Shown one piece after another: positions 9,130 through 64,000 of a DNA stretch of 64,000 nucleotides. The stretch comes from Zingiber officinale (Eukaryota; Streptophyta; Magnoliopsida; Zingiberales; Zingiberaceae), in NCBI RefSeq assembly GCF_018446385.1, contig NC_056001.1:10100672-10164671 (forward strand). The letters run 5' to 3'. A model generated the notes under the pieces. It was given only the letters and a program-made list of their open reading frames with translations. It searched no databases and was not told the origin of the DNA. Every line of letters begins with the position of its first letter. The first letter of the stretch is position 1. The position numbers and the translations under genes are program-made.

Positions 9130-10539
9130 AGTAATGTATGGAAATTACATAGAATATAATTAGTACAAGTCAATTTCCTATTGGTTCTAAGTGACCCAAA
9201 AGGGTCTGATCATATTTGTTAAAACTTTATACTAAACTACACTAGAAAATCATGATCCAAGTCTTATGATTCCAAATAGAATCTATATCATATTTATAAA
9301 CAAAAAATGTTAAACAATAGCAGTAAATCATGATTCTTTATTTTAGAGTGTCAAATAAACAAACAAAAATTCTCATTAATGTTTTGAACTTAAGTACGTA
9401 TAATAATCAAAATAAAATGTTTGTCAAAAATTATAGAGTAATAAAGAAAATACAGACTCTCACTAGATAAATTTTTCTTCTATAAGAAGGACTTTCATAT
9501 CCATAATATGCGCATTAAACATATTAGGTACCAAGTCATTGGTAAGTGGATCTGCTAACATAGAATCTGTGTTGATGTGCTCTATCATGACCTGACGACT
9601 CTTAACTTTGTAGAAACTTGATGTCAATGTGCTTGGTCTTTGACAAACTGCAGTTATTTTTGACAGACAATTCTGTGACTTTATTATTATAGTTGATCAA
9701 CAATGGTCTATCAATACCATTAATAATCTACAACACTGTGATGAAGTTCCACAACCAAATCTCATGATTTGATACTTTGTAGCATGCTACTAACTCTACC
9801 TTCATACTAGAAGTGGCTGCTAGAATATTTTTGACGCTCTTCCAAGATATAGTCCCTCCAATAAGCATGAAACATTTTATCCAAGCATCTCGTAAAATCA
9901 GAGCCTAAATATCCAATCACCTCTGGGTGATCTTACCTCCGATACGTGAGCATGTATCCTTTAGTTCTTTGTAAATATCGCATCACTCTCTTTACTATTT
10001 TCCAGTGCAACAATCATGGGTTACTAATGTTGGGACCGAAAAGTAGCTAGAGGGGGGGTGAATAGCTCTTCGCGTGCTTCGTGGTTGGCGTTGCTTGTTT
10101 CTTCAAAGATGCGCAGCGGAAACACAAGAAACAAACCACACAACGCTAACAAGGTTGGTTTACTTGGTATCCACCTCACAAGAGGTGACTAGTCCAAGGA
10201 TCCACACCTACTCACGCACCCTCCACTAATAAAATCCTCCTTTTTGGTAACTACCAAAGGCGGAGAAGCCCTACAAGTTCACACTACAAGAAGAAGGGGA
10301 AAGGATACAAAATATAAGCACAAAGCTTACAATGAGTACAAGAAAACCCTAACCCGAGCTTTCTTCCTCTTGCAATAGATCCGCCTCTTGACTTGGAAGA
10401 ACCTCCAAGAACTTCAAAAACTGGCGTGGAGAGCTCTGTGGAGTCGCTGGTGAAGATCTAAGGTTTGTCGTGGAAGCGATGCCGAAGGAAATGAACACCT
10501 GCGGCTTAAATCGACGCTAACGATCGAATCCCGATCGAT

Positions 10540-10795
10540 TGGAATGCTCCCAATCGATCGGGGAGGCTTTGGATCGATCCACGGATCGATCCAGAGTGCC
10601 TCTGTGCTATGGAAAAATGCCTGGATCGATCCACGGATCGATCCAGTGCTTATCGCGCGAAGCATCATCGTCCCAATCGATCCACTGATCGATTGGGACC
10701 TCTGGATCGATCCACTGATCGATCCAGAGGCTTTCTGTGCGCTAGGAAACTGCCTGGATCGATCCACTGATCAATCCACTGATTGATCCAGCTCT
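10540..10795. repeat. ATCGAT palindrome cluster in solo LTR
   Basis: About ten copies of TGGATCGATCCA-like palindromes, arranged as pairs separated by CGG or CTG, in the TATA-proximal part of the LTR. Confidence 0.9.
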
Positions 10796-10870
10796 TGATT
10801 TTTACCCAAAACCAAGTCCCAAGCCTCCCAAACCAACCTTCGGTCAACTTTAACCTGTTGGTACGTCATA

Positions 10871-11248
10871 CCTAGCATCTAGTCACTTCCTTGACCTGCT
10901 AGGACTCCCTCACCAAGTGTCCGGTCAATCCCTTTGACCCACTTGGACTTTTCTTTGTGCCAAGTATCCGGTCAATCCCTTTGACCTACTTGGACTTTTC
11001 TTCATCATGCATGGCTTCACTCACTAGGACTTCCAATCTGCCTAGCTTCACTCACTAGGACTTCTCTTCTGCCTGGCTTCACTCACCAGGACTTCTCTTC
11101 TGTCTGGCTTCACTCACCAGGACTTTCACCTAACTTCACTCACTATGATTTCTCTGCTGCCTGGCTCCACTCACCAGGACTTTCATTTCGCCTAACATCC
11201 CAGTTAGGACTTCCCAGTCAAGTATCCGATCAATCCTTGACCTACTTG
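10871..11248. repeat. Hairpin array with compensatory stems
   Basis: Long-loop units: stems CCTAGCA/TGCTAGG (10871-10903), CCAAGTG/CACTTGG (10913-10946), CCAAGTA/TACTTGG (10960-10993) and CAAGTA/TACTTG (11219-11248), with loops of 18-20 nt ending TTGACC. Short-loop units: CCTAG/CTAGG (11041-11059), CCTGG/CCAGG (11072-11090 and 11160-11178) and CCTAAC/GTTAGG (11191-11208). Nearly every unit is followed by ACT or GACTT. Confidence 0.85.
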
Positions 11249-11614
11249 ACTCTTCTTCAATCAACCTTGTATTGTCAAACATCGAAACCCAAACCAAGAC
11301 TCAAGCTTGGTCAACCAGGTCAACCTTGACCTGAGAGATGTTGCACCAACAACTAACATATTTGTCTAACATCTCTACTATAAATGCTATATATGGTCAT
11401 TTATAAACTTGTGGATACATGAGACTTCCTACAGCTGATGCATAAGGAAATTATTTCATCTCCTTTATTTCAAATTCAAGATGTGGATACTGTTGTAAAC
11501 TGAATTTGTCATGTTTAGACATAGGTAGGCCACTAGGTCCATAGTTTTGCATGTCATACCTTATAAATACCTTTTCAATTTAGGCCTGTTATAAAAGTCC
11601 AAGAATGTATGATT

Positions 11615-12503: not shown

Positions 12504-12659
12504 TGTTGGTGCGGGAAGCATCTGACAATTGAACCCAAATTTTGATAATGGCAAAGGAATCAAAGTTAAGCTTATTTGTGATCTAACATGTCTGATGGAG
12601 ATTGCAGGAAAGTCCTAAGTTTTCTTAGGCAAAATTCCTAGCTACGATTAGGCAAGGTG

Positions 12660-12850
12660 AAAACCCTAGGGGGTGGTAACCCTAGGTGAAGGAAAAACCC
12701 TAAAGGGAGGTAACCTTAGGTCCTAGGGGTGGTAACCCTAGGTGGAGGAAAATCCTAAGGGGGGGTAACCTTAGTTCCTAGGGGGTGGTAACCCTAGGTG
12801 GAGAAAAACCCTAAGAGCGGTAACCCTAGGTCCTAGGGGGTGGTAACCCT
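12660..12850. repeat. Hairpin array in LTR 12504-13773
   Basis: Units with stems CCTAGGG/CCCTAGG (12665-12686 and 12722-12742) alternate with CCTAA/TTAGG (12699-12720) and CTAAGG/CCTTAG (12755-12774). Loops contain GGTAA. Both arms change together between units. Confidence 0.8.
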
Positions 12851-13124
12851 AGGTAGAAAGTCTAGTCGGTCTGGTGGACTGAACTGACATCAGGTAATCT
12901 CTCCTGAGGGGAGTAGGTGAGGACGCGCTCCCCGCAGAGGGAACAGTAGGCGTCAGGTTGACCTAGGGTTTCTGGTGAAATTCGAAGTCAGACCCGGACA
13001 GTCTGATGACTGTCGATCACTTGATTTATAATGTTTTAACTTTGTCTTGCAGGATATGTTGTTGTTTTGGGACTAACATGTCTTGCAGGTACAAAAGGAA
13101 CAAGCTAAGCCGCGGATGAACAGT

Positions 13125-13365
13125 GTCCGAGGCGCCTCCATAGAGCTTGGAGGCGCCTCGGGTGCAGATTGTGAGATGGCCGCGAAGCAGTGCTGGAGGC
13201 ATCTCGGATGGAGCTGGAGGCGCCTTGGACCAGAGATTGGAGGTGCCTTGGATTGGCTTGAAGGTGCCTTCAAGTGGATGAGTTGCGACCAGGTCCGTTC
13301 TGATCCACGCGGCTGACTCAGCTTGTTGGAGGCGCCTTGGATGGTGATTGAGGCTCCTCCAGCAG
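13125..13365. repeat. GGCGCC palindrome cluster upstream of TATA box
   Basis: Repeated GGAGGCGCCT and close variants, the last directly before TATAAAA at 13368. Same position within the LTR as the ATCGAT cluster of the 10028-11351 LTR, but a different core. Confidence 0.85.
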
Positions 13366-13778
13366 TGTATAAAAGGAGCTCTCGAGCAGCAAGTTAAATC
13401 ATCAATTCACAAGCGACCTTTCTGCATTCAGCTGCTTACGAGAAGCTCCAACGAAGCTACAACTTGATACCGACAACCCGTAACTCTAAATCTGACATTT
13501 CACTTGTCGTTGGTATATTCTTTTATTATTGTTAATTGTACTTGCTTGTAAAAGATTTTCGATATTATAGTTGTTGCCCATCGAAAGCGATCAACGATCG
13601 CGAGCCTTGGAGTAGGAGTCGCTACAAGCTCCGAAACAAGTAAATATCCTGTGTCTTTCTGTGTTTGTCTTTTCTTTACTGTTTCTGCTGCTTTAACTCG
13701 AATAATTTACGAATTCGAAATGTGTGAAAGCCATGAGTGCTAATCACCCCCTCTAGCGCTTCTCGATCCAACAAGTAC

Positions 13779-14385: not shown

Positions 14386-14387
14386 TA

Positions 14388-15676: not shown

Positions 15677-16310
15677 CATGATAATTAATTTTGGATGTAT
15701 AGATGCTATATAAACCAATGCTAGGGATGCATTGTGATTTAGTATGACAAATACATCAATAGAAAGCCAAAACTAGGAATTTAGGTCAAGGTTCAATTGA
15801 ACCATTTAAATAGTTTTGGATTTTGTGACATTCTTGGGATTAGTGATAAATACATTTTGTAATAAATTTTTCCTAAGTAGACATGAGTAAAATAGACCTC
15901 TCCACAAAATTTGGAGATTTTTGGAGGTTTGTGAAATTTCTAGTATATTTATGAAGTTTGTCAGAAAAGGTTGATTTTTGCATAAATAGAGTACCAGTCG
16001 ACTGGTGCAGATACCAGTCGACTGGTAACAATATTTTTGAGCACAGAATGTCTCTGTAATCTCATTTTGATGAGGGCAGTTGACTGGTACTGATACCAGT
16101 CTACTGGTAACAGTGCTTTCGACCACATAACGCTTCTGTAATGTTGTGTCGAAGGGATAAGTCGACTGGTACTTGGGGGCAGTCGACTGATACCAGCCTG
16201 AAAGTATTTTTCAGCGTTGATTTTGACCACGTCAACTAATTTAGATGTATGAGATCCATGGGGAATAAATACATGAGTTTAAAATCAGTTTGTATGAGAT
16301 CAGTTGTGAC
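15677..16310. other. Non-coding stretch with further GTCGAC palindromes
   Basis: AT-rich sequence with several CCAGTCGACTGG palindromes and variants between 15990 and 16200, the same 12-mer as in the LTR at 13820-13920. No coding region recognised. Confidence 0.7.
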
Positions 16311-27500: not shown

Positions 27501-27539
27501 TTAAGGCAATGGAATTTTGATTAATATTCTAGACTTGGA

Positions 27540-27870
27540 CCGATCAGGATCCAACCTGATCGGTCTGGGAGTCGCCTGATCGGTCTGTGGACCGATCAGT
27601 CCCTAGGCTGATCGGTCCCCAGACCGATCAGCCAACTCTCTGTGAGAGTTGGTTTCGAAGCCTGATCGGTCTGTGGACCGATCAGGCTATAGGTGGATCG
27701 GTCCCCAGACCGATCCCCCTACCTTCTTTGCCTCTGATCGTTTCCTGATCGGTCCGGTGACCGATCAGATAACTTACAGTGAGCCACTGTTTGGTTTCTG
27801 ATCGGTCACCAGACCGATCAGAAAACCCATAGTATCACTGGATCGGTCTGCTGACCGATCCAATGCCCAT
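27540..27870. repeat. GATCGGTC/GACCGATC palindrome cluster
   Basis: About 14 half-sites, arranged as CTGATCGGTC, a 2-6 bp spacer (TGTG, CCCCA, GGTG, CTG) and GACCGATCAG. The design matches the palindrome clusters of the LTRs elsewhere in the window, but here it sits inside a CACTA element near B's insertion site. It may be a small LTR fragment carried in A. Confidence 0.85.
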
Positions 27871-33207: not shown

Positions 33208-36200
33208 TCATTTTTTCTTGTTTGTTACAAAGAAACCCTCTTTAGAAGATCTAAAGTATCCTTCATGTGTAGGAATACAATGAATATCAACATTATCAAT
33301 TGGTCGAGCTTCGGGAATTATGGTCCAAAGATCCTCTTCTCCCTCGTAACATCTATTTGGAACTTGAAGCACTATTGACCACCCTTTGTTCAGTGGGTCA
33401 GCAACATAAAATACTTGTCTAACTTGACTTGCAAGCACAAATTCATCCTTCTGGTGCCCTCGTTTGTTCAGATTAACTAAGGTGAAGCCACATTCATCAT
33501 TGTATTGTATTCCTTTGTCATTTGATACCCATGCGCACTTGAAAAGAGGAACTTGAAATTGATGATAGTCTAGTTCCCATATCTCTTCAATAACTCCATA
33601 AAAAGTCACATTCTCTAACACGGGATTCTTATCTTTGGCACTACAAACAAGCATCGTGTTGGCAAGTAGAGAAACACCACTGTTTTGACAAACTTTCTCA
33701 TCATCCCGCTCTTTTGTTTGGTATAAATTGCCATTTATGACATAGCTATCACACTTTATGACTCGCACACGTGGTCCATGGGCCAGCCATCTCAATGACG
33801 ATGTCATTCCACCATTGCAACTGTCGATTTCAGCAGCCACCTGACATGAATTCCTATTAATTAGTGTGATCAAAACAATGATTAACAAATATTGTATGTT
33901 AACATCTTCTACATCACCTTTGCACAAAACCAGTCAATGAACCTCTTATTATGAGCATCTTGTATCCACCTTGCATCTTTCTGTTTCTTGGGAAACATTA
34001 TCTTCAAGAAAGATTTGTGTTCACTGAAGAATTTTACTTCTAATGTTTTATTTTCATGAATGCATATGGACTGCCAAGTACATATAATTATTAGTTATGC
34101 AGTACACTTACATAATGTATGGAGATATTTTTTCTGTATTTTCTAGAACAGTCAAGTGTGCTTGTCGGAGATCAATTTGTTGGACGATGATTGATGAATT
34201 GCTTGCTGAGAATCCAGGAATGCTTGCGTTTGGGTCACGTAGTGATTTAGGGACCCCAACAGGATCAAGGTCATTGAGATATTCTGAACAAAATTCAACT
34301 GCTTCTTCTGCTGCATATCTCCGAACAATGCAACCTTCTGGATATTTTCGACTGCCTACGTAACTTTTCAACACCTTCATGCATCTTTCAAATGGGTACA
34401 TCCATCTGAAGTAGACTGGTCCACATAATTGGACTTCACGAACAAGATGAACTGTTAAGTGGAGCATGATATCGAAGAAAGAAGGGGGGAAATACTGCTC
34501 CAATAAGCAGAGTGTAACAATCAAGTCAGATTGCAGCTTATCTAACTTGGCTACATCGATAATCTTGCAACAAATATCTTTGAAGAAGAAGCATAATCTT
34601 ATGATAGCATATCTAACATATTTTGGCAGAGAATTACGTATGACTATTGGCAGGAAGTGCTGCATTATAACATGAGAATCATGTGATTTCAAGCTACTTA
34701 GCTTCATCTCATCCATGCAGACAAGATTCTTCATGCTTGATGAGAAACCTTCCGGAACTTTTATATCCATTAATGACCTACATACTTGTAATCTCTCATT
34801 TTTTGTGAATGAGCATGCTGCAGGAGGTAGATATGTTCTTTTCTCACCAATTTTAGGAGCCAATTGAGGTCTAATTCCCATCTGAACCATGTCCAACCTA
34901 GCTGCCACATTGTCCTTGGTTTTTCCCTTGATGTTCATCAAAGTATTAATCAGAGACTCGAAAACGTTTTTCTCAATGTGCATAACATCGAGACAATGCC
35001 TAACATGTAGGTATTTCCAATATGGAAGATTGAAAAAAATTGACTTCTTCTTCCAACATTTACTGAAATTTGTAGCTCCAACATACTTTTCTTCTTCAAT
35101 GTATTCCACAATATTCTCCTTTGCTTTTTTCCTTATTTTCCCCTTCACACTTGTTTTCTTTCCAAACTCACATGTTATTTCTGAAAGCTTGTCAAACAAC
35201 TTAATTCCAGATAATGGCCTACCTGCTTCACCAAGTTCCTCCATGCCATTAAACTCCTTTATTTGCCTCCGATATGGATGAAATCGTGGTAGGAATCGTC
35301 TATGCCCAGCAAATGACATTTTCTTCCCATTTGGTAAGTGCTTTGCATAAGTATCCTCACCACATATTGGGCATGCGTAATAACCATGTGTAGTACATCC
35401 ACTAAGGTTACCATATGCAGGAAAGTCGTTGATGGTCCATAAAAGAACTGCTTTAAGAGTGAAAACCTCCCTTCGATAAGCATCATAAACTCCATCAACT
35501 CCTTCCCACAAGAGCTGCAAATCATCAACCAGAACCTCAAGGTAGACGTCGATATCGTTTCCAGGCTGTTTCGGCCCTGAAATGAGCATCGTTAGCATGA
35601 TGAATTTCCTTTTCATGCACATGTATGGAGGCAAATTATATGTGGCCAGCATGATTGGCCAGCAACTGTAGCGACTACTAAGATTGCTGTGAGGATTAAT
35701 TCCATCGGCTGCAAGTGCCAGGCGAATATTTCTTGCCTCACTTCCAAAGTCGGGCCACATATGATCCACCAATTTCCATGACGGAGAATCAACTTGATGG
35801 CGTAACTGACCAACAACTCTTGTGCTATCTGCATGCCATGTTAAATTTCTGGAAGTTTCTAAAGATTTAAACATGCGCTTAAATCTTGGTATGGGAGGGA
35901 AATACCAAACCACTTTGGCAGGAACACCTTTCTTCTCAACATTTTTCTTGGTTAGCTTCCATCTTGATAAGCCACATTTCGGGCAGCTTACGCAGTCTTT
36001 ATATTGTTTCCTATAAAGGATGCAATCATTGGAACAAGCATGAATCTTTTCATGACTCAAAGCCAAACAACTCAACGTCTTCTTTGCTTCATAAATTGAC
36101 GATGGCAGATTGTGGTTATCTGGCAGCATGTCCCCAAAATCTGCTAGTAGATCTGAAAATAGAGCATCACTCATCCCATGCCTTGCTTTGGTATTGTATA

Positions 36201-36646
36201 GTTTTACAAGTGCACTCAACTTTGTGTAACGTTTGCATCCCTTATACAGTGGCTTCTCTGCTTCCTCCAAAAACTTCATAAATGCTTCTGGATTTTCTAT
36301 ACGCTGTTTCACACAAATTAACAGCTTCAAAATTATCATGACAATTATCAGTTGGCTCTTGGTTGACACTCGAATTTAATCTATCCTTCTCATCAGCCTC
36401 ACCATGCCAAATCCAATTCAAATAATTTTTTCTGAAACCATTGAAGTAAAGATGCTCCCGAATCCACATAACCGCTCCCTTTTTAAGATTCATACATTTG
36501 CAACAAGGACAATGAATTAAATTGGGGTCGATATGTGGATTCTGCAAACAACTTCTAATGAATTGTTCTACACCCTCCTCATACTCTTTGGACCTCCTAT
36601 CTAAGTAAATCCAGGATTTATCCATTATAGTACAACAGAATCCCAA
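33208..36646 (-). CDS. TNP2-type CACTA transposase, element B
   Basis: Main enzyme that cuts and joins the element. The N-terminal Transpos_assoc domain (36646-36310) has SWIYLDRRSKEYEEGVEQF and CPCCKC. The Transposase_21 core and DUF4218 run as one open frame of about 730 residues (36310-34108), with NLPPYMCMKRKF, GCTTHGYYACPICG, HIEKNVFESL and YFRWMYPFERCMKVLK. A short exon near 34071-33917 (FIDWFCAK) and a DUF4216 exon (33840-33208; NSGVSL, VFYVADP) complete it. The N-terminal domain and core are in different frames and meet near 36300; no intron of normal size fits there, so a one- or two-base indel is likely. The rest is intact. Confidence 0.9.
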
Positions 36647-36649
36647 GAA

Positions 36650-38500
36650 ACTTCTTCAGAATTATCGTGCTAAAATTATTTACCGCTAGCTCAATGTGTT
36701 CTTTGATCAAAACCTGAAGATACTACATATATGTTAAGCAAACGTTAGAGTAAGACTGCAAAAAGGTAGTCAAATTCATATCGAGCACAGTTCCATATTT
36801 TATACTCATTCCAACAGCTGTCAATATTTTCTACTCATCATGAAGAAAAATAATGCGTATTTTGTACAATATGTGGATATATAAAGAACGAAAGCATGAC
36901 ACCAGTTGAATTTCCAAACACTTGTCTTTTTTCGAACATGCACACTCAATCATTTGACATATGAACGCTCTTAAATAGATTGAATCTATTGGGTTGTCAA
37001 CAATCCAGTGTCGGAGACCATTCAGCCTGATAGTAGTAAAAGAAAACCCCTCTAATTTCTGATTTTAAAGTTAGTTTTTCATAATCATGCTGTTGTGATT
37101 GTTGAAATTTATGATGGAAGCAGTTTTGAGTTCGTTTAATCCAATTGTAACCAAATTTCTTGAAATTTATGGTGGTTATAAATTGTTCATGGATGGAGCA
37201 TTTCAGAATGTAGGAGATATGCTGAGTTGCATTTGTACAAGTTGTGTGATACATTTTTAGAGAGCTTACACAAGTTTTTTATTAGAACTTTTTGTCATCC
37301 TGAGGAGTTAGGAAAGGTTTGAGATGTAACTATAGAAAGTGTGAATAGTAATTTTATTTAGTTTTATTGTATTTTTACTCTCATATTTTTTTTAGCCAAA
37401 GATTTACTTTGAATTTTATTAAATTATTTATCTTAAGTGGTATCATAGTTAGAAATTGTTAAATTAAATTGTTGTATTTATGCTGGATGAAGCAGTTACA
37501 CATTTAATCTCAATAAGTGATAGCATAGTTGAGATTGTCTGATTCTGAAATGTTGTATTTGGGATCTTCATAGTGGATGAAACAGGTAGCACAAAGACAA
37601 ATTATGTTAGGATGGTGAGAATTTACTATAACTATTAGTGAATGTTGTATTTAAAAGTTATTATCATCATCTACCTAGTGGAGAAAATGCTAAGCTATCT
37701 TATGCCAAAGAGAGTAGCAAATAATAGAGAGATGTAATCACTCTTTATCAAATTATACCTAGTGTGGATCGAGTATACAACACAAGGCATTAGATAGAAA
37801 TTGGATGCATCTCTGTTTTATTTCAATCCATTTCAAGAGGACAAAGATAAAGTATCTGACCACATTTATATAAAGAAAGAAGGCATTCATCATCAAGATT
37901 TGAATAGGAGTGTAGTGGTCACCGAGAGAGCAAGGACAAAATAGAAATTATAAAGGTGAGTGTTCTAGCAATATTGATTTGTATATGAATGTTGATGGTT
38001 GCTTAGCAAATTGTCTGAACAAGGAAACAAAAACACACATTAGTTACATTAGTTTTTGCTATCTCATGGGAAAACAATCCATCTTCTATAGTTGATATTT
38101 AAATTCAATTGGTGCTATGCTTGCTTGCATTAGGAGGCAGGTATTTTTTTTTAAGAAAAATTAATACATGTGGAACTGAGATTTTGAGGGACAACTTGAA
38201 GGAGTAAGAGTACAACACATGTCTTACTCTAACTTGAAAGCATGCGTATTTTTAGGTAATGACCTCGTAAACATAGAGAATGAAAAAAAAAAAGCAAAAA
38301 AAAAATTCCAAACACTTGTCTTTGTTGGAAGAATAGCACCAAACCTACAACAAATTGGAGACCGTCTAAAACATGATTTTGCAAAATAAAGGAGGAGAAA
38401 AAGAAGAAGAATAAGAAAAAGAAATCGAAGGAAAGAAAACATACGGTATATCTCAAACAGTTGCAACCTAAACCCTGCGTAAGAAAGTTCAAGTTGCCAA
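36650..38500. other. Non-coding 5' part of element B
   Basis: AT-rich leader region between the transposase start and the right terminus. A poly-purine/pyrimidine patch at 38380-38430 gives low-complexity open frames only. Confidence 0.6.
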
Positions 38501-38564
38501 ACCTTATTTCGGAAGCCCTAACGAGGAAACCTTCGTCTCTGTTGCCTAAGACTCCAAATCAGAA

Positions 38565-38720
38565 GCCCTAACGAGAGGGAACGGAGAGGACTGAAATGAA
38601 GGGGAAGGAAGAGGAGGTCCAACCTTATTTCGGCAGAGGGAAGCCCTAACGAGAGGGAACGGAGAGGACTGAAATGAAGGGGAAGGAAGAGGAGGTCCAA
38701 CCTTATTTCGGCAGAGGGAA
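38565..38720. repeat. Tandem duplication, 78 bp x 2
   Basis: Two nearly identical units beginning GCCCTAACGAGAGGGAAC at 38565 and 38643, near the 5' end of element B; possibly part of the leader or promoter of its genes. Confidence 0.9.
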
Positions 38721-38774
38721 GTTAACGAAAAAGTGGGGGGAAATAAAAGTGGTCTCAAAATAAAAGTTAACTCT

Positions 38775-39021
38775 TGTACTATTACTTCGGAGTAAACACT
38801 AAAAATTCTATTCACGACGTTACTACTTCGGTATTTAACAACTTTCCGAAGTAATAGCTTATTTCAGTTTAAAGCGAAGCCCGCGTTTTTAAATATGTGA
38901 AGTCTATATTTGTATATACTTCGTCAGTTTTTTCAGCGAAGTTGCTTATACACTATTACCTCGTATATTTAAATTGATGAAGTAAATCGTGGCGAAGTAA
39001 AACGTCGTTTTTCACATAGTG
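38775..39021. repeat. Right terminus and subterminal repeats of element B
   Basis: ACTTCGG/CGAAGTA copies in both orientations, ending in the complement of CACTATGTGAAAAACG. Confidence 0.88.
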
Positions 39022-39342
39022 ATGGCAACTCAACAACAACATTTTGAAAACAGGTTTCTCAATTTCTGAATTGTAATTGCTCAAAAATCAGATATAGAAA
39101 TTAGAAATCAGCTTTCATTTCAGAAATCAGATTCAGCAAATAATTCTGTGGTTGCTGAAATAAAACTCAGCAGAACACCTTCACTTCATTTTCAGAATTG
39201 TGATTTCCAAGAGATTACAACTGAGTTCATGGAGAGTTCAAATAAGTAACAATTCCCTTTTGCCATATTGATTTGTACTCACAATACATTAGAAAAAATT
39301 CTTATTGATAGAGCTTTAGAATAATGAACGAAAACACAAAAA

Positions 39343-42300
39343 TCAACTAAAGCTTTCATCATCTGTTTCATTGTTCACAACTGGAAGAACATCAACTATT
39401 GAGCCCTCTACATCAGTTCTAATTAATTCAACATCTACTCTATTTACATCACCTAATATTGATTCCATATTAGAAAAATTATTATGAATAAAATGCATCG
39501 TATCCATATCATCTTCATTGCCCATGTTATACGTATCTCTTGGTGTGTGACGAATGGCGCAGTACCAATCCTCCTCCTTTGGATCACGAACATAATAAAC
39601 CATTTGAGCTTGCGTAGCCAAAATAAAAGGTTCATGTTTCTCACGTTCTCCTGTATGTATCAAGCGTGAAAAATTCAGCATTGAAAATCCAAATGGATCA
39701 ATTTTGAAACCTGTAGTAGTGTTAACCCAATCGCATTGAAAAAGAATAATTCGTCCACGACCACCATAATCAAGTGAGATGACATCAGTTAGTCGACCAT
39801 AATAGATTGACTCATGATCATCATTATCATGCATCGCCTACACCATAACCCCACTATTCTGGACCTTTTTGTTTGTTTCAGATTCCACCGTGCGAAATGC
39901 AAAACCATTTATGTTGAACCCATGATAACTAAATGCTACTGGATTTGGACCACGCGAAAGCACTCGAAGATCTAAGTCATCGATTCGTTCATTTGCTCGA
40001 TCAACCTGTAAGGTACACATATAATTTTTACAGTAAAAAAATTAACAAGTCCATTTATTAAAAATTTGTAATATAAAATAAATCACATATATTACTTACT
40101 CGTCTTGCAAACCATTCTGGAAATTGCATTCTAACCATGTCATCCAACTGAGAATTACTTGGGCGTTGGCCATATCTATGTCTTCTCTTCAATTCATTTT
40201 TTATTTCAGTGTTCAATATCAACATTAATATATAATTAAAACAAATTATTGATCATAAAACAATAAAATATTATGCAAAAAATCAAAAAAATAGTATTAC
40301 TTACTCACGATATGGTTGCAACACTGTACAATTAGAGAGAATATATCTATGAGCTTGAGTTAGAGTTTTGTCATCTAAGGTAACTACTTGAAGCCCTTTT
40401 GTTGGTCGCCCTACATGTGGAAACATCGAGAGTGTGGGAAACTCATCATTTGGTGTCTCTTTATGTCGTGTTCCGGGATTGTTTAATGAGATGTTACCAT
40501 CTACATAATGAGAACAAAACACAACACATTCATCTGCTAAATATGCCTCTGCAATGTTGGCCTCTGGTCGTGCTTTATTTCTAACAAAATTTTTAAGTTT
40601 CCCCAGATATCTTTCTATTGGGTACATCCACCGATAATGTACAGGCCCAGCAATTCTTGCTTCATACGCTAAATGTACCACCAAATGAACCATTATTGTG
40701 AAAAAAGATGGTGGAAATATTCTCTCTAATTGACATAAAACCAAAATAACTCCTTCTTCAGCCTTTTGTAATTCATCTTCTTGTAGGGTCTTTGCACATA
40801 CTGTTCTAAAATATTCACACAACATAATAAGTGGAGCAGTTACCTTTTTCGACAGCACGCGACGAAGAGCAATTGGAAGGAATTGTTCCATCATAATATG
40901 ACAATCATGGCTTTTCAAGCCCATAATCCTACAACATCCAACATCCACACACTTTGAGATATCAGATGACATACCATCAGGAACACGAATATCTTTCAAT
41001 ACAGAACAAAATATCTTTTTTTCATCTTTACACATAGAGTAACATGCAGGTGGCAAATACTCTCTACCATCTAAATGTGCCCAGGGCCATAATTGTTTAA
41101 TAATACCCAAATTCTTTAAGTCTCTACGCGTTGCATAATTATCTTTGCTCTTGTTGGAATCATCTAAAAGTGTTCCAACAATATTGTCGCAAACATTTTT
41201 TTCAATATGCATAGGGTCCAAATTATGTCGGATCAAATTAAATTCCCAGTATGGAAGGCTAAAAAATATGCTTTGTTTTCTCCACATTTGTTCAATTGAT
41301 CCTGTTTTTATTCTCACATTTGGTTTTGATGCATTACTCTTACCAAAAATCACATTCTTGTTTAAGGTCATTCGTAGAACGTCAAATCCAGACAATGGTG
41401 CCAAATCTAACTCACGTAACTCCGGTTTGCCATAACTTGGCATTGTTCGCATTTCTGAATCTGGTGGTAGAAAACGACGATGCCCTCTAAATGACCACTT
41501 TTTGCCATGTTTTAGGTACACTGCATCTGTATTATCAGCACAAGTTGGACATGCATTCTTGGCATATGTATTCCATCCAGACAAACAACCCAAACCAGGA
41601 AAATCACTAACTGTCCAAAGTAATGCAGCCCGCATTTGAAACATTTTTTTTCACAAGCATCAAATGTGGCAATTCCATTTTCCCATAAATCTTTCAATTC
41701 AGTCAATAGGGGGCGCAAATATATATCGATATCATTGCCAGGTGCTTTTGGACCAGGAATAAGGGTGGATAAAATAATAGAATAAGGCTTCATGCATTCC
41801 CAAGGTGGCAAATTGTAAGGCATCAGGACAATAGGCCAAGTACTATGTGAAGTGCTTTGATTTTTAAATGGATTAAACCCATCAGCGACGAGTCCCAAGC
41901 GTACGTTTCTAGGATCAGACGCAAATTCATAATGACGTTCATCAAATTCCTTCCATGCTCGAGAATCAGCTGGATGCCTTAGATTTCCATCTGAAACACG
42001 TTTTTTGAAATGTCATTGCATATTTTCAGACGTCTTAGATGACATGAATAACCGTTGCAATCTTAGTTTCAATGGAAAATACCAAAAGACTTTGGCTGGA
42101 ATTTTAACTTCAGGACATTTTTTTCCACCTTTATACGATCTCCTTGATGATTTTTGCAAATTTTTCCATCTTGGAAGGTTACACACTTTGCAAGCCTGTT
42201 CATTCTCATTTCCCCCCCAATAAATCATGCAATCATTTGGACAAGCATGTATTTTTTCATAATGAAGTCCTAAACTAGAAATTAATTTCTTTGCTTCATA

Positions 42301-42909
42301 AAATGACTTAGGCACTTGAGCTTCAGATGGAAGTACTCGACGAAGGAAGTCCAACAATGCTGTAAATGACTTATCACTCCATTTTCCATTCACTTTCAGT
42401 TGAAATAACTCAACAAGGAACGACAGTTTAGAAAACTCTGTGCATCTGGTATATAGCTGTTGTTTCCCTTCCTCAATTAGTCGATAGAAATCTTTAACAT
42501 TAGACTCCATCGGTGTATGACTCGTTGATGCTCCAATGTAATTTTCATTACTTGTAGATCCTTCATGAATTCCAAATGCATCATGCAGCATTTCTTGTAC
42601 CATCGGTTCATGGCTAGTTACTTCAGAAACTTGTTGCACTGAATAATGAAATTCTTTGTTATCATGATCTTGTACAATTAGTTTTTCTCCATGAAAATTC
42701 CAGATGCGATAATCTTGTAAAATACCATTTATCATCAGATGTTCGTGTACTGTCTCACGATCATGACTCAATGAATTTATGCATTTGCAACAAGGACATG
42801 GTCTCGTGACATCTGGAGCCGCATCACCAAATGCATAACGCAAAAAATATAGGATTCCCACCTGATACTCAAGACTGCCATGTGGCGCAGCCATCCATTG
42901 CTTCTGCAT
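39343..42909 (-). pseudogene. TNP2-type transposase of element A, interrupted
   Basis: Same family as B's transposase but clearly diverged. Domains on the minus strand: Transpos_assoc at 42900-42690 (RPCPCCKCINSL, IWNFHGE), the Transposase_21 core across 42600-41050 (VFWYFPLKLRLQRLFMSS, NLPPWECMKPY, HIEKNVCDNI), DUF4218 at 41050-40550 (HYRWMYPIERYLGKLK) and DUF4216 at 40020-39343 (QNSGVMV, MVYYVRDP). Stops lie at 42013-42015, where a Trp is expected, and at 39838-39840. A length change in the A run at 41644-41652 shifts the frame. The element therefore cannot supply its own active transposase. The remaining sequence is still readable, so loss is not ancient. Confidence 0.9.
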
Positions 42910-56765: not shown

Positions 56766-57170
56766 TGTTGGGACCTTGACGCTCACTAGACGGGGGGGGG
56801 GGGGGGGTGAATAGCGTCTCACCCAAAACGTCGCTTCCTACAATGGTTAGTATGCACAGCGAAATACAAAAATAAATACTAATAATAGAAAGCAAACCTA
56901 ACACATTGATTTAACGTAATTCGGAGATAAAACTCCTACTTCACGGTTGTCCGTAAGGTGGACGATCCCGATCAGTCGATGGATGATTCCCCGGAGAACT
57001 TTCGGCTAGCTCACGTAGCTTCTTGTGGGTGGAGAAACCTCGCCACAACTTCGTGCAAGCACGCTAGATTACTTGGGCACTTGAAGACTCTAATTAGTGT
57101 TAACCACCACTAATTTCATCAACCTTGGTCAAGCACCCCGAGCTCTATTAAATAGAGCTCGGGAGGAAAA
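56766..57170 (-). mobile_element. LTR fragment inserted in the Gypsy remnant
   Basis: Starts TGTTGGGACCTTGACG, followed by a run of about 17 G (56793 onward) and GTGAATAGC, as in the U5 end of Copia LTRs seen elsewhere here. It is itself cut at 57171 by another LTR. The candidate left duplication is CATTC; its partner is not visible. Confidence 0.65.
57137..57163. repeat. Perfect 27 bp palindrome over a TATA-like core
   Basis: Arms CCCGAGCTCTATT and AATAGAGCTCGGG around a single A. The centre reads TATTAAATA, a TATA-like core in either direction. Confidence 0.95.
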
Positions 57171-57549
57171 TGTAAGACCGTTAGATTCGATAGAGGGGGG
57201 GTGAATATCGATTCGAAAATATCGAGTATAAGCGCAGCGGAAAAGTAAAGTAGACACAGTTGTTTTTACTTCGTTCGGAGCCTGTGACGACTCCTACTCG
57301 AAGGCCCGTGGTCCTTGACCACTTTCGTTGGGCAATCACTAGCAATTCGAATATAATTACAAAATGAATACAGGAAATGCTAATGAAACAAAGTAATACC
57401 GACAAGGAAATTAAGAAAAACGAAGAAGCACTTTGTCGGAGCTTTGTTAGCGTCGCAGGAACGTAGAGCAACAGGACCAGCAGTCGAAAAGTTCTCAGTT
57501 GATGATTGATTCTGAAGCTCCTGCCTGGGGCTTCTTTTATATGCTGTCC

Positions 57550-57720
57550 CGGGCGCCTGGATCCCTTCCGGGCGCCTGGAATGTGACGTAGCTGCACAAA
57601 CCATGATGCTCCACGTGGCGACGACTCGGCTGGATAGAATTCGTCTTCCGGGCCCCCGGATCCCTTCCGGGCGCCCGGACCTCCGGGCGCCCGGATTCCC
57701 TCCGAGCGCCCGGACCACCT
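57550..57720. repeat. GGGCGCCC/GGGCGCCTGG palindrome cluster
   Basis: About seven copies of CCGGGCGCCCGGA and variants, separated by TCCCTTCC-like spacers, immediately upstream (element sense) of the TATA box. Confidence 0.88.
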
Positions 57721-57971
57721 TGTTTCAGAAAACTCCCTTTTCCTGCAAAACAAAGTTAGTCCGAGGCAAATGTACCCTGCAAGAAAGAGTGTTAGCACAT
57801 TTTATAGATGAGCATGAATGACTTAGATTCCATCTTTCCGAGACCGGAATCTAGTCACGATCTCGACTTAGATATCCGAAATGGATCTAAGTCGGATCGA
57901 CGCCTAATGTTCCCTTCCCGGGAACGCGTCCTCGCAGTCACTCCCCTCCAGTGACTTACCTCACTTACCTG

Positions 57972-58168
57972 CCAGACGTCCGGTCAGCCCGTCGACCCGT
58001 CTGGACTTCTCGCCAAGCGTCCGGTCAGCCCGTCGACCCGCTTGGACTTCTCGCCAGCTATCCGGTCAGCCCGTCGACCTAGCTGGACTTCTCGCCAAGC
58101 GTCCGGTCAGCCCGTCGACCCGCTTGGACTTCTCGCCAGCTATCCGGTCAGCCCGTCGACCTAGCTGG
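57972..58168. repeat. Array of five hairpins with constant loop and varying stems
   Basis: Period 41 bp. Stems at 57972-58004 (CCAGACG/CGTCTGG), 58013-58045 (CCAAGCG/CGCTTGG), 58054-58086 (CCAGCTA/TAGCTGG), 58095-58127 (CCAAGCG/CGCTTGG) and 58136-58168 (CCAGCTA/TAGCTGG). The 19 nt loop TCCGGTCAGCCCGTCGACC is identical in all five. Each unit is followed by ACTTYTC. Confidence 0.95.
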
Positions 58169-58277
58169 ACTTTTCCTGCACACTTGATAAAAGTGTCAGA
58201 CAACAACAAACCTAACTTAACCTGATTTGTCATTCATCAAAACCTGAGTTAGACCGTTAGTGCTAACCGCACCAACA

Positions 58278-59770
58278 ATCTCCCCCTTTTTGATGGAATG
58301 ACAACCTGGTTAAGTTAGTGATAAAAATATGCAAAAATCAAGCATGATTTTTGAGGTTTTTAAGGTTTAAGTTAGTTTTTTTTTTTAAGTTTGCATTTAG
58401 TTGCCCTACCTTAACCAACCTAACTCTCCCCCTTTGGCATTCATCAAACAACAAGGGAAAACAATCATAGCGAGAAATACTGAAAACAATAATACCTTGA
58501 ACAATAACTGAGTTTTTAAATCCAAGAGAAGATCAAATTGACTTGGGGGGGTATAAAGTTTTGAAAATTTGTTTAAAGCATTAGCTTTTAGCTTTTAGAA
58601 AAAATTGCTAAGTTTAGATAGGTTAATTTTCAAACATAAGTGTATAAGGTCTAAAAATTTTTCAAAATAAGTTTCAACTTTGAAATGCTACTTAAACATA
58701 AGTTTTCAAAACCAAAATCCCAACGCTAAGTTTGAAAAGTCTATTTTTCAAAACTAATTGAAATTTATTTTTCAACACTAAGTGTACAAGATTCAATTTT
58801 CAAAACAAGGAAAATAACTTTGAGAAGCTTAGTTTGTAAACTAAATTTTGTAAAATTTATCCTTCAAATTAAATTGTCAAAATTAAGTAAAGTCAAATCT
58901 TTAAGAAGTAGACTCAGGACAATTTTCAAAGTAAAATTAAGTTTAAATCTTTACTTTTAGTTTTCAAAGGAGTTTGATAAACGTAAGAAAAAAATTTTTG
59001 GAATGTTTTTGTAAAGTTTGCTTTTCAAAATCAAATTTTTCAAAGTTTAAAAGTATTAGATTCAAAACTATGGTTTAACATACTTGAAAAGTTCAGTTTT
59101 CAAAGAATAGGTAAAAAGGATAAAAAGTTTGTGAGTTTAAAAATTAAACAAACTTTGATTTTCAAATTTAAGTTTAAAATTCAATTTGGAAAACTAAAGT
59201 AGTTTTATTTCTCCCCCTGAATTTGATATTTAACTTCAACCAGCTGTCTAACCAATTAGGTACTAACTAACTATTAGAAAATAGTAGCTTTCACTTGGTT
59301 AGTCAGATTAAGTTAATTATAATCAGTCAGTGTTTGACTCGACTGATGAACTTTAATCTGATTAATATTTGAATTGTATTTAACGTCCAGACTTATACTG
59401 ATGCACTGAAATAAGCATCTTAAGTCCAGACAGATGGCCTATGCATCTCACCCCTTTCTATGTTTATCAACCACAAGCAAGGTAAACCTAAGGTGTTGGT
59501 GAGATGCTCAAGAACTAAACCTATGGGTACATGCTTTTTAAGGATGTAAGACTAGTCTAAGGCCAAAACTGTTTTTGAAAGTTTAAAAATGGAAATTTTT
59601 GAAAACAAACAAGTTTAGCCTATAAGTTGATAAAATCAGTTTTGAACGTATTTATGAAGGATCCTAGTCTATTGAGCAAGAACATATTCAATGTAAGTTT
59701 GAAATGTCACAAGATAAATTCAAAAATATTTTACAAATAGTGTAGCTACAGAAGTAGGTCATCACTAAAG
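58278..59770. mobile_element. Non-coding 3' interior of the SIRE-like element
   Basis: Begins with the polypurine tract complement, then about 900 bp of degenerate TTTTCAAA/AAGTTT simple repeats (58320-59220). Further CTCCCCCT tracts lie at 58428 and 59213. No coding region. Confidence 0.7.
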
Positions 59771-60970
59771 CTACTGAGATGATGAAGAGGGTGGTCCAGA
59801 TCCCAAGGATCGAAGAAGTGTCATCAGCTCAGTGTGGCGGGTGTCCCCGGCAGCTCGTAACTCGGCAACCTCTCGCCGTATGTCCCGATGAAAATCGGAG
59901 TTCTCCTGCTGGAGACTCGCCATGGCTCTCTCTAGTCCGGTCATACGGTCGGCTAGAGTGCGGGGAGCGTGTCGTGGTGCTCGAGCTGGGGGTGGTGGTG
60001 GAGCCGGTGCGGCTTCCTCCGGAAATAGTGCGAGCCTGATCTGTGCGTCTGGATCGGGCTGGTGCTGTGCCCCCCTCCGCCAAGTCATAGTCCCGTCATC
60101 TCTATCTACCTGGATGCCGGCTAAGGAGAAGTTCCGAGAGGATATAACATCGAACTCGGTCATATGGGCAACGTCTCCTCTAGTGACATCAATGTGCAGT
60201 GAGGACATATAGGCTGTCAAAATGTGACCAAATGGCATATGGACTCGACTGTCAGTAACGTATCCGGCTGCGTAAGTGATGGTGGAGAATATATGTAGGC
60301 TAATGTCAATCTCCAACCTATGAATCAGGGCATAAAGTAGGAATGAATGGAATGGGCGCATCGCAGCGATGTCCCGAGTGGTCAGTGGTAAAATACAAAG
60401 AACTACAACTCTATAAAGAGCGTAGTCCTGGACTCTAAGTTCTACTGACCTAAACTGTGTCACAGTGGGATCTCTCTCTCCCCCCAAAAAATACGAATAC
60501 ATCGTATCGAGAGTAATATGTGAGTAGGGATCGTCGAACGGTAGATCCCTCGGAGGATAGCACAAAAAGGGGCAAGTAGAAGGACGCAACTCTAAAAATT
60601 CTCTGATAGTCGTAGGGGAAAATACGATATCAGTGCCTGCTGCCCTAGTGGTATAGGTGAAGTCATCTACTTTTACTAAGTTATTGCAAAATTCGGCACA
60701 TAGACTTATGTTTATTGGACTGGTACATTCTACAAGGTTCCTTAAATTGTAGTGGCCTATAACCTCTAAGGCAGAGGGACATGACCTTAGGAAGAACGCT
60801 CTATCTACGCAGGTAGTCCTAATGACCTTATAGATGGTGGACTCAAATTTAATCCTAAGTTCGTCCGTGGGAAACCTAGGGTCTGTACTAGCATTGGAGG
60901 GTCCAGCACCAGTATTTGTTCGTTTCTTACTGTATATAAAGAATATATATAAAACAAATTTAGAAGACAA
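59771..60970 (-). CDS. 399-residue ORF, putative plant transposon protein (Transposase_32-like), in an LTR element
   Basis: Long open frame without interruption. The part from about residue 35 to 285 resembles the putative plant transposon protein domain (RSCPSALEVIGHYNLRNLVE, SPTTIREFLEL, HRLEIDISLHIF, FGHILTAYMSSL). It is followed by a Pro/Ala-rich linker (325-345) and a coiled coil (LADRMTGLERAMASLQQE to the end). The first ~15 residues look intron-derived. A GT donor near 61009 and CAG acceptor near 60929, with an ATG at 61014, would give a short leading exon instead. TATAAATA at 61177-61170 lies upstream. Function unknown; no catalytic residues are evident. It lies where pol would be expected. 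The name is from memory of the family. Confidence 0.65.
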   Translation of the reverse strand: MSSKFVLYIFFIYSKKRTNTGAGPSNASTDPRFPTDELRIKFESTIYKVIRTTCVDRAFFLRSCPSALEVIGHYNLRNLVECTSPINISLCAEFCNNLVKVDDFTYTTRAAGTDIVFSPTTIREFLELRPSTCPFLCYPPRDLPFDDPYSHITLDTMYSYFLGGERDPTVTQFRSVELRVQDYALYRVVVLCILPLTTRDIAAMRPFHSFLLYALIHRLEIDISLHIFSTITYAAGYVTDSRVHMPFGHILTAYMSSLHIDVTRGDVAHMTEFDVISSRNFSLAGIQVDRDDGTMTWRRGAQHQPDPDAQIRLALFPEEAAPAPPPPPARAPRHAPRTLADRMTGLERAMASLQQENSDFHRDIRREVAELRAAGDTRHTELMTLLRSLGSGPPSSSSQ

Positions 60971-61084
60971 AAAAATATTTTAGAGAGGGGAAGAATATTT
61001 TACCGAGGAGCCATCGGAAAAAATATAGATTTGACGACCTCGGTTGAATCGCAACAGCGTCTTCACCGCACGAAAATTTAATTT

Positions 61085-61270
61085 AGAGTACTTTCGCACT
61101 GAGGTTCAAAGTGAACCTTGGCAAAAGTGAGAATGAGTGGGGCAGAGGTTGGGGGCGCCTGCTGCCCCTTATTTATAGGGCACTCCGGGCGCCCGGGGTC
61201 GCTGGGGCGGGGCGCCCGGGACCCCTTCCGGGCGCCCCCGACGAGAATACCAGGGGCGCCCGCCCCTGGT
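61085..61270 (-). promoter_or_regulatory. LTR-like promoter block before the 399-residue ORF
   Basis: GGGCGCCCGGG palindromes (61180-61262), then in minus sense TATAAATA (61177-61170) and a leader. It has the same order as the TATA-proximal part of the LTR at 57171-58277 although it lies inside the element. Confidence 0.55.
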
Positions 61271-61279
61271 TTTTTGACC

Positions 61280-62455
61280 TTTTTTTTATTTTATTTTTTA
61301 TTTTTAAGTTAAAATTAAAATTTTGAGATTAATTTTAAAGTTTAAAATTAGAATTTTGAAATTAATTTTTAAGTTTAAAATTAAAATTTTTGAAGTTCAT
61401 TTTTAAGTTTAAAATTTTTGAAATTAATTTTTAAGTTTAAAATTAAATTTTTGAAGTTAATTTTTAAGTTTAAATTTTTAAGTTTAAAATTTTGAAAATA
61501 ATTTTTTAAGTTTAAAATTAAAATTTTTGAAATTAATTTTTAAGTTTAAAATTTTTGAAATTAATTTTTAAGTTTAAAATTTTTGAAATTAATTTTTAAG
61601 TTTAAAATTAAGTTTTTGAAATTAATTTTTAAGTTTAAAATTTTGAAAATAATTTTTTAAGTTTAAAATTTTGAAATTAATTTTTAAGTTTAAAATTAAA
61701 ATTTTGAAATTAATTTTTAAGTTTAAAATTAGAATTTTGAAATTAATTTTTAAGTTTAAAATTAGAATTTTGAAATTAATTTTTAAGTTTAAAATTAGAA
61801 TTTTTGAAATTAATTTTTAAGTTTAAAATTAAATTTTTGAAATTAATTTTTAAGTTTAAAATTTTGAAAATAATTTTTTAAGTTTAGAATTTTGAAATTA
61901 ATTTTTAAGTTTAAAATTAAAATTTTTGAAATTAATTTTTAAGTTTAAAATTAAAATTTTTGAAATTAATTTTTAAGTTTAAAATTTTTGAAATTAATTT
62001 TTAAGTTTAAAATTTTTGAAATTAAGTTTAAAATTAAGTTTTTGAAATTAATTTTTAAGTTTAAAATTTTAAATTTTGAAATTAATTTTTAAGTTTAAAA
62101 TTAAAATTTTTGAAATTAATTTTTAAGTTTTTAAGTTTAAAATTAAATTTTTGAAAATAATTTTTAAGTTTAAAATTAAATTTTTGAAAATAATTTTTAA
62201 GTTAAAATTAAAATTTTGAAATTAATTTTTAAGTTTAAAATTAGAATTTTGAAATTAATTTTTAAGTTTAAAAGTTTAAAATTAAAATTTTGAAAATAAT
62301 TTTTAAGTTTAAAATTAAATTTTTGAAAATAATTTTTAAGTTAAAATTAAAATTTTGAAATTAATTTTTAAGTTTAAAATTAGAATTTTGAAATTAATTT
62401 TTAAGTTTAAAATTAAATTTTTGAAATTAATTTTTAAGTTTAAAATTAAATTAAG
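61280..62455. repeat. AT-rich minisatellite, about 30-35 bp unit
   Basis: About 1.17 kb made of TTTTTAAGTTTAAAATT and TTTTGAAATTAA words in units of roughly 28-36 bp, some 35 copies. Almost no G or C outside AAG and TGA. No coding potential. Confidence 0.95.
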
Positions 62456-62981
62456 CCTTATTCATCTCACCCGATCTATATTATCAATCAGGGAATCCTA
62501 TGATTTTGTGAGATGAAATTGGTTTGATTACAGACTTTTGGTTTAACTTGTGTTAGATTCAGATTTAGTTTTGGTTTCCACAAATAGGCATTCTTCGGAT
62601 AAACTTCTAAGCTTGGTGAGTCACAGGGACATCATTAGAAGTAACCAACCTTTCGAAGTTTTCCGAATAGTCCCATCCACGGAACTTAGTACTAAATCTT
62701 GGTCTAACTGGTTAGGATTCGTTTAAGGGTAGCTTCGGTCAGTTCCACTTGGCCAAATGCACCAGATCGAAGCCATATCTTTCTAGACATGCGATGCCCA
62801 AGCTTCCCTAACGTACTATCATCCAAGAACTTCACCAGTACCATGAGTCAAGTTAACCTCGGTCTCTTTTTAACTAATCCTGATTACCCTGTCGGGTTAG
62901 TTTGTTTTGGGTTACCCTGTCGGGTATGTTAGTTTTGGAGCAGCTATTCTGGAGCCTCCCCCTGAATTATTGGCCATTAAT
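62456..62981. mobile_element. Interior of the SIRE-like element between minisatellite and gag
   Basis: No gene recognised. A CTCCCCCTGAATT tract near 62957 and two CCCTGTCGGGT repeats near 62890-62925. Confidence 0.5.
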
Positions 62982-64000
62982 TTAGATTTTGGGTTTGTGT
63001 CGATTCTTTTTATAGTTATAATCAACTTGGTGATAGTCTAAATTTTGTAGAGTTTTGAATTTTGATTTTAAGTTAAATTTATTTGTTAGTTTTTGATCTG
63101 ATTTATTCAAGTTTATATAATGTATTTTATCTTTAGGTATATAGAATTGATTAAGTCCTACTTGCGTGGTTAAGCACGCTTTCGGGACCCAAGCTTGTTT
63201 AGTTGCTTTGTGTTGGGTTAATAATGATTTAAAGGTTTTGTTTGATTTTGACTTGTATCCAAGTCCGGTTTTATTATAGCATGCCTTTTGGTTATTTAGA
63301 ATTAAATCTAAATTTTTAGATCTTGTTGTGAATTTTTCCAACAATTCTTTTAACTTATTAATTTCACTTTTTAATGATAAATTCTCCTCCTCAAGTGTTC
63401 GATCTTGAGTTGGATTCGAATTTTTTAATTGTTCCTTCAGGTTTTGATTTTCCTCAAGAAGCGATTTATTTTCATTTTCCAATTTAACTAATTTTTTATT
63501 TAAACACGAGATAATTCTAAAGAATTTATGATTTAAGTTTAGGTATACCTCTTCGGAACCTTCGGAAACGAGTGCGGACTCGTGGCTCGATTCGGGTTCG
63601 GACCCGTCTTCCGATTCCTCTGATTCGTCTTCCGTTTCAGCTTCGCGAGCCATCAGCGCGAGGTGACTTTGGTGCTTTTGCCTTTCTCCCTCTGATTCGT
63701 CTGAGGAGGAATCGTCCCATGTTGCTTTGAGGGCTTTCTTCTTTGTTGACTTTGATTTGTCAAGTTTCAATCTTGGGCATTCGTTCTTGTAGTGCCCCTT
63801 TTTGTTACATCCGAAACATGTGACATTTCTTGAGTCGGCTGGCGAACTGATCTTCTGAAGATCCTGTTTGCTGAAGTTTCTCTTTTTCCTGGTGAACATT
63901 TTCCTTACCAGGTTCACCAGGTGTTCTTCGTCTTCAGAGTCTTGATCGGAATCTTCTTCAGATTCGGGTTTGTTCTTCTTTTCTTTAGAGGAGTCTGCGA
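62982..64000 (-). mobile_element. SIRE-like Copia gag, 5' part off window
   Basis: Open frame running off the right edge. In order: an acidic Ser/Glu-rich stretch, a basic KRNFSKQDLQK segment, the CCHC zinc knuckle CFGCNKKGHYKNEC, an acidic Ser/Glu/Asp region, a coiled coil (LENENKSLLEENQNLKEQLK), and a NLDLILNNQKACYNKTGLGY motif shared with the gag at 15134-15676. Nucleocapsid-like RNA binding is the family role. No pol follows it in the window. Confidence 0.82.

Follow-up and report, generated by a model that had tools for sequence, protein, structure and literature searches.

We found that five tandem hairpins in ginger (Zingiber officinale) DNA, which differ in the sequence of their stems while both arms stay paired, belong to the palindrome-rich cis-regulatory U3 of a Sirevirus-type LTR retrotransposon. 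The window that we analyzed is a single stretch of 64,000 nucleotides, and all coordinates refer to it. What we observed directly is the setting of the array within the element, its nested hairpins, the paired state of their arms, and matched changes in related units of another LTR; from these, we infer a copying mechanism. Our leading explanation, which we hold tentatively, is that the arms of this palindrome array are re-matched by template switching and that the hairpins are kept through a function of the U3.

A hairpin array in the U3 of a Sirevirus-type LTR

The sense strand of the element is the minus strand of the window, and the array occupies about positions 107-306 of the 3′ LTR (LTR1; Table 1). 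The initial annotation had placed the array in an LTR U3, so that the element RNA would carry it close to its 3′ end, and this placement was borne out. The junction of the polypurine tract (PPT) and the attachment site reads GGGGGAG-AT-TGTTGG at 58286-58272, and several PPT copies lie upstream of the 3′ LTR, with minus-strand GGGGGAG at 58280, 58426, and 59211. Two further GGGGGAG copies, at 60478 (within the open reading frame at the envelope position) and 62956, are perhaps separate from the PPT cluster, and six additional ones occur, on either strand, elsewhere in the window. An inverted repeat spans the PPT/LTR junction. The RM-type palindromes with a CGG-CCG core stand upstream of TATAAA in LTR1. 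Poly-C runs similar to CACCCCCCCTC are also present in LTR2 and LTR3, and we labeled the run in LTR1 as a candidate integrase signal on the basis of the poly-C-rich integrase signal described for Sireviruses.

The Gag-like frame, which runs off the window end, matched zf-CCHC with an E-value of 0.0076 and 16.7 bits, below the cut-off of 20.8, and its bZIP match was also weak. The frame at the place of the envelope-like gene showed a sub-threshold match to PF20167, which we take to be a mark of Sirevirus envelope-like proteins. The minus strand has no frame above 70 aa that is contained entirely in the interval between these two frames (60979-62982), and we may therefore be dealing with a non-autonomous derivative. 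A 33-bp AT-rich tandem repeat fills 1.15 kb of this interval (61300-62450) and is similar to its own reverse complement as well. LTR-like GC palindromes, followed by TATAAATA (61177-61170, minus strand), precede the envelope-position frame in sense, at 61140-61270; the palindrome-TATA order of the LTR is repeated there, as if this frame had its own promoter. Overall, the non-coding features of the element fit those listed for Sireviruses (Ty1/copia) in PMC2829016.

Other elements share the window. Minus-strand transposase frames at 33208-42909 (Transposase_21, DUF4218, DUF4216, and Transpos_assoc) are of a kind that we take to be typical of CACTA elements. Scattered AGTCGACT palindromes at 13830-16200, some of them lengthened to ACCAGTCGACTGGT, are perhaps from another LTR element, and TGGTATCAGAG at 14375 is presumably a tRNA-Met primer-site motif.

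Table 1. Features of the host element, its hairpin array, and two other LTRs of similar build in the window
Feature	Position	Strand	Remarks
LTR2, solo LTR, 1324 bp	10028..11351	minus	ACTAA on both sides; related hairpins inside
Class I hairpins E (10871-10903), D1 (10913-10946), D2 (10960-10993)	10871..10993	minus	In LTR2
Class II array, six units	11010..11178	minus	Loop TGAGTGRAG, 5-bp stems; 3/6 perfect
Class I hairpin F	11216..11251	minus	In LTR2
LTR3, probably a solo LTR	12504..13773	+	Flanks GGTAC/AGTAC, 4/5 bases alike
LTR3 hairpin array, seven units	12665..12853	+	Arms CCTAGGG/CCCTAGG or CCTAA-type; 4/7 perfect
3′ LTR (LTR1), 1107 bp	57171..58277	minus	TGTTGG...CTTACA; limits inferred from motifs, as the window has no 5′ LTR to compare
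Poly-C run CACCCCCCCTC (sense)	57193..57206	minus	Near LTR end
TATAAA, taken as promoter TATA box	57536..57541	minus	LTR position 737; second TATAAA at 472
RM-type palindromes TCCGGGCGCCCGGA and variants	57548..57714	minus	CGG-CCG core; two clusters, LTR positions about 564-730
Class I hairpin array, five 41-nt units	57971..58172	minus	+ strand order A B C B C
Hairpin A	57972..58004	minus	Arms CCAGACG/CGTCTGG (+ strand spelling)
Hairpin B1	58013..58045	minus	Arms CCAAGCG/CGCTTGG (+ strand spelling)
Hairpin C1	58054..58086	minus	Arms CCAGCTA/TAGCTGG (+ strand spelling)
Hairpin B2	58095..58127	minus	Identical to B1
Hairpin C2	58136..58168	minus	Identical to C1
Inverted repeat across PPT/LTR junction	58212..58318		Arms 58212-58242 and 58288-58318 (31 nt), 74% complementary
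Terminal polypurine tract GGGGGAG + AT	58278..58286	minus	Ahead of LTR TG
ORF at the place of the envelope-like gene	59771..60979	minus	Pfam PF20167 Transposase_32, 40 bits vs cut-off 45
Gag-like open frame, 338 aa	62982..63998	minus	Off window end; weak CCHC zinc-knuckle match

The array consists of five 33-nt hairpins with 7-bp arms at a start-to-start spacing of 41 bp. Five hairpins with paired stem changes had been reported from the sequence, and this was correct: all 35 cells of the outer stems are Watson-Crick, with pairs 1-3 constant and the other four of the seven (pairs 4-7) variable. The 19-nt loop TCCGGTCAGCCCGTCGACC, described as frozen, is indeed identical in 5/5 array units; however, GGTC and GACC pair within it as an inner stem that has a one-sided 3-nt bulge, and it differs in the related units of LTR2. 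In sense, the class I unit reads CC(N5)-GGTC...GACC-GGA-(N5′)GG, and a symmetrical CGG-CCG core is absent. The same nested architecture (outer stem, one-sided 3-nt bulge, and inner stem) is predicted in 7/7 distinct class I units from two LTRs. An Rfam search over 57100-58400 gave three matches up to an E-value of 1, none of them near the gathering score and none inside the array.

Nine of the 41 columns of the array unit are variable, eight in the arms and one where the last unit differs in its spacer; by pairs, variation affects 4/7 arm pairs compared with 1/27 other columns (Fisher p = 0.0035). An 82-bp block has been duplicated to give units 2-3 and 4-5 (a single spacer base apart), and the array therefore contains only three distinct units. 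With unit 2 as the ancestor and changes confined to the arms, random change sets of equal size paired as well as the observed ones at p = 0.0022 for unit 1 and p = 0.00015 for unit 3. When changes were allowed to fall anywhere, 18% of trials left unit 1, with its four changes, still paired, since the majority of randomly placed changes miss the arms. Being still paired is not rare by itself under the latter null; the rarity lies in the concentration of changes in the arms.

Matched changes in related and unlike hairpins

LTR2 holds further class I hairpins, of which D1 and D2 were found by BLAST, E by its stem, and F by reading; E is therefore biased as covariation evidence. The loop-adjacent stem pair distinguishes D1 from D2 by a G-C to A-T change. 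Compared with D2, each arm of F is one base shorter and the stem is lengthened by AGT/ACT. The covariation set comprised the six distinct units A, B, C, E, D1, and D2, and F was omitted as it had been shifted by the aligner. In the outer helix, two of the seven pairs are invariant and five carry double changes (11 cells), with no one-sided change, no unpaired cell, and no G-U among the 42 cells. In the inner helix, four cells are one-sided G-U and double changes are absent.

We compared these values with those of 500 shuffles, with the caveat that related sequences can beat shuffles without structure. Percent paired, doubly changed cells, and the covariation score were each reached by 0/500 shuffles, and the number of pairs with a double change by 5/500, but the number of pair types was not in excess (416/500 shuffles as high). 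Sliding the alignments by 1-3 columns left just 13-38% of cells paired. When the 3′ arms were permuted among units, only one of the 720 orders, the real one, paired all six units; without E, 5/5 units were paired and 1/120 orders was as good.

One-arm stem changes in other copies had been named in the initial annotation as the observation that would speak against its reading. Among the relatives in the window, the outcome was divided: class I units show double changes and stay paired, whereas class II and LTR3 units mix matched changes with one-arm mismatches. The class II units had been gathered by their loop and not by their stem, and the LTR3 units by their core. In class II, the fourth pair from the base is G-C in three units, A-T in two, and A-C in one, and one G-C unit and one A-T unit have non-Watson-Crick cells elsewhere. 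The fifth pair of the LTR3 units is G-C (n = 4), A-T (n = 2), or A-C (n = 1). Non-Watson-Crick cells amount to 5/30 in class II and 4/49 in LTR3, and in sense they are five A-C/C-A, one G-U, one A-G, and two C-T mismatches, a spectrum unlike selection for sense RNA pairing. The one-arm mismatches may reflect decay of the solo LTRs once they were no longer mobile.

Palindromes of other kinds were observed as well. At 10557-10790, LTR2 has four palindromes round GGATCGATCC, with one core in common; two of them have unrelated paired arms, CCTCTGG/CCAGAGG (7 bp) and GTCCCA/TGGGAC (6 bp), and the other two have only 4 and 3 paired bases beyond the core. Elsewhere in the window, seven hairpins of the form GATCGGTC-N4-GACCGATC at 27530-27870 show variable 4-nt loops and copy-specific paired extensions. 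Their 21 paired extension bases compare with 9.7 when the flanks were permuted (p = 0.0007), for a set that was one of six palindrome sets and picked after inspection, with 7/8 rows used (the core of the omitted first row paired with one 24 nt further on, an overlap). LTR1 and LTR3 also share a motif between the hairpin array and the palindromes (57899-57948 and 12906-12954; 80% over 51 columns), which in sense reads GAGGACGCG(T/C)TCCC...GGGAACA(T/G)TAGGCGTC.

Hairpins of at least 6 bp are in excess in the pre-TATA parts of all three LTRs, with 16, 12, and 13 in LTR1, LTR2, and LTR3 versus 3.2, 3.3, and 3.9 after shuffling (0/200 as high); the LTR2 boundary was placed by eye because LTR2 has no TATAAA. 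The downstream parts of the LTRs are also in excess, at 4 versus 1.8 (9/200), 8 versus 2.5, and 6 versus 2.0 (0/200 for the last two). When 212 segments of 600 bp were ranked by hairpin content (40 shuffles each), 57601-58200 came first (z 7.2), 10801-11400 second, and 27.3-27.9 kb third.

Two further ideas were set aside. AGTCC...GGC was tried as a common hairpin base, and 13/73 AGTCC sites start a hairpin of at least 5 bp compared with 237/5063 NNNCC sites; GCGCC (13/58) and GGACC (12/71) are equally high, so we simply note this base. That neighboring units require unlike arms was dropped on reasoning alone. Pattern searches for the hairpin, the PPT junction, class II, and LTR3 found 0 loci in viral contigs, and those for the hairpin and class II found 0 loci in prokaryotic genome contigs, collections in which plant copies are hardly to be expected; the hairpin pattern was narrow, matching the five units within the window and missing their LTR2 relatives.

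Proposed copying of the arms and the alternatives

We propose that the matched changes come mainly from template switching at a hairpin, during reverse transcription or DNA replication, which would rewrite one arm from the other, such that a one-arm mutation would be either erased or copied into the partner arm. Tandem duplication, as of the 82-bp BC block, would then spread the result and keep the loop and spacer uniform. The hairpins would be retained through the function of this U3 zone, probably transcription or its host control. In immobile copies, such as solo LTRs, re-matching would end and single-arm mismatches would accumulate. Template switching has been proposed for multi-base compensatory changes in RNA genes by Monttinen and Loytynoja (PMC8794818), who, in the part of the paper available, describe their own case for the maintenance of stems as less clear and as circumstantial.

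Several observations argue for arm copying. The outer stems have five pairs with double changes and no one-sided change, and the inner stem shows the opposite. The arms vary more than the loop and spacer, which pure stem constraint does not predict. Hairpin F, with one base fewer in each arm and three extra outer pairs, looks as if copying had overrun, and matched changes also occur in unlike hairpin families (class II, LTR3, the LTR2 palindromes, and the 27.5-27.9 kb set). Against arm copying, the independent units are few, three in LTR1, and E is biased. The stem pair adjoining the bulge covaries, yet the bulge is kept in 7/7 distinct class I units, which is hard to obtain from simple fold-back copying. 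An inverted loop, the strongest mark of template switching according to the available part of PMC8794818, was found in none of the class I units. In LTR1, these units also have no directly adjoining paired base beyond the inner stem (0 in 5 array copies), which is due to the bulge. Moreover, the other arrays are only partly perfect (3/6 and 4/7), two of the four LTR2 palindromes pair for just 4 and 3 bases, and the pair types are not in excess. A narrower version, which we consider possible but doubtful, is that the element's own reverse transcriptase re-matches Sirevirus U3 hairpins by template switching, in which case the covariation would come from copying and the arms would be a fast-evolving paired lineage tag.

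A folded nucleic acid and a mechanism that copies the arms had been put forward as the two readings from the start, and they are the two still live. Selection on the fold is the close rival to arm copying, although we judge it rather unlikely: the hairpins would be needed close to the 3′ end of the genomic RNA, in an antisense or small-RNA precursor, or as a DNA cruciform, and one-arm mutations would be compensated. The nested architecture in 7/7 class I units of two LTRs, the percent paired and covariation score above 500/500 shuffles, and the pre-TATA hairpin excess in all three LTRs are consistent with such selection. Furthermore, the + strand of the array as single-stranded DNA was predicted to form exactly five clean hairpins (z -3.6, 0/200 shuffles as good); the - strand gave z -2.2 (3/200 as good), and five separate hairpins did not form. 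Sense RNA, however, does not favor five separate hairpins: the whole array reached z -0.77, with 44/200 shuffles as good, and the mean own-unit pair probability was 0.26 in sense and 0.60 in antisense. Single units A, B, and C as sense RNA reached only z -1.4 to -1.9; the LTR2 units E, D1, D2, and F reached z -2.6 to -3.6. The outer stems contain no G-U, which RNA selection would permit, and the arms outpace the spacer in change. Roles in packaging, priming, or RNA stability, once suggested for the array, gained no specific support.

We consider it improbable that the units are palindromic DNA binding sites, as proposed for RM boxes, in which protein binding keeps the symmetry. The array does precede the TATA box, its U3 is rich in palindromes, and the LTR also contains CGG-CCG RM boxes. 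However, binding is expected to freeze the arms, and what we observed is arms that vary between a fixed loop and fixed flanks, in a class I unit without the symmetrical CGG-CCG core. Methyl-CpG decay, in which C-to-T changes on both strands turn arm CpGs into TG/CA or TA/TA without copying or selection, is slightly more improbable still. Positions 6-7 of the 5′ arms in A, B, C, E, D1, and D2 read CG, CG, TA, CA, TG, and TA, and all six are reachable from CG by transitions, but decay would be expected to leave unmatched combinations, found in 0/6 units, and the varying stem positions 3-5 are not CpG. CpG decay may be a source of mutations, not of matching. Simple repeat decay had already been thought inadequate, and our results support this: chance or ordinary tandem-repeat decay, which could appeal to there being just three distinct units, to the 82-bp duplication that raises the apparent number of units, and to the 18% that stay paired under the changes-anywhere null, is most improbable in view of the arms-only null (0.0022/0.00015), the single paired order among 720 arm permutations, and the matched changes in other arrays.

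Relation to known LTR palindromes

Sirevirus RM boxes are described, in the part of Bousios et al. (2010; PMC2829016) available, as high-copy palindromes that occupy the stretch of the 3′ LTR from the PPT junction to the TATA box and also occur before the envelope gene; most copies lie 200-400 bp into the LTR, and high identity within an element is stressed. The GC palindromes of LTR1 at 57548-57714 resemble them in their CGG-CCG core. In contrast, the array units are found from about 107 bp of the LTR onward, form longer compound hairpins with a 19-nt loop, have no CGG-CCG core, and vary in arm sequence while staying paired. LTR palindrome clusters with predicted secondary structure, a small-RNA hotspot, and high variability are attributed to Bousios et al. 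(2016, Genome Res 26:226) in the accessible parts of PMC10760457 and PMC5311732. Our arrays are likewise clusters in the LTR regulatory region, but the maize palindrome given there, CACCGGACNNNGTCCGGTG, differs in sequence. The hairpins of PMC8794818, as far as the available part describes them, also show compensatory changes of several bases at once, in which the stem is matched anew while the loop is retained; unlike ours, they belong to rRNA and microRNA genes under DNA replication, not to LTR arrays or reverse transcription.

As far as the available parts of these papers go, both the existence of palindrome arrays in the LTRs of Sireviruses and the place of these arrays are already published, and their high variability is cited later. 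A literature search judged by titles and the starts of abstracts, with Bousios et al. (2016) outside its scope, found no report of arm covariation or compensatory change in LTR palindromes and listed no paper on Sireviruses in ginger; the string "compensat" is absent from PMC2829016, and both "compensat" and "covari" are absent from PMC10760457.

Covariation is the usual proof of selection on an RNA fold. The window brings together unlike covarying arrays, the best of them without G-U intermediates, and would be a natural place to test whether template switching can imitate this proof. The finding also bears on how palindromes persist in Sirevirus LTRs despite attracting small RNAs.
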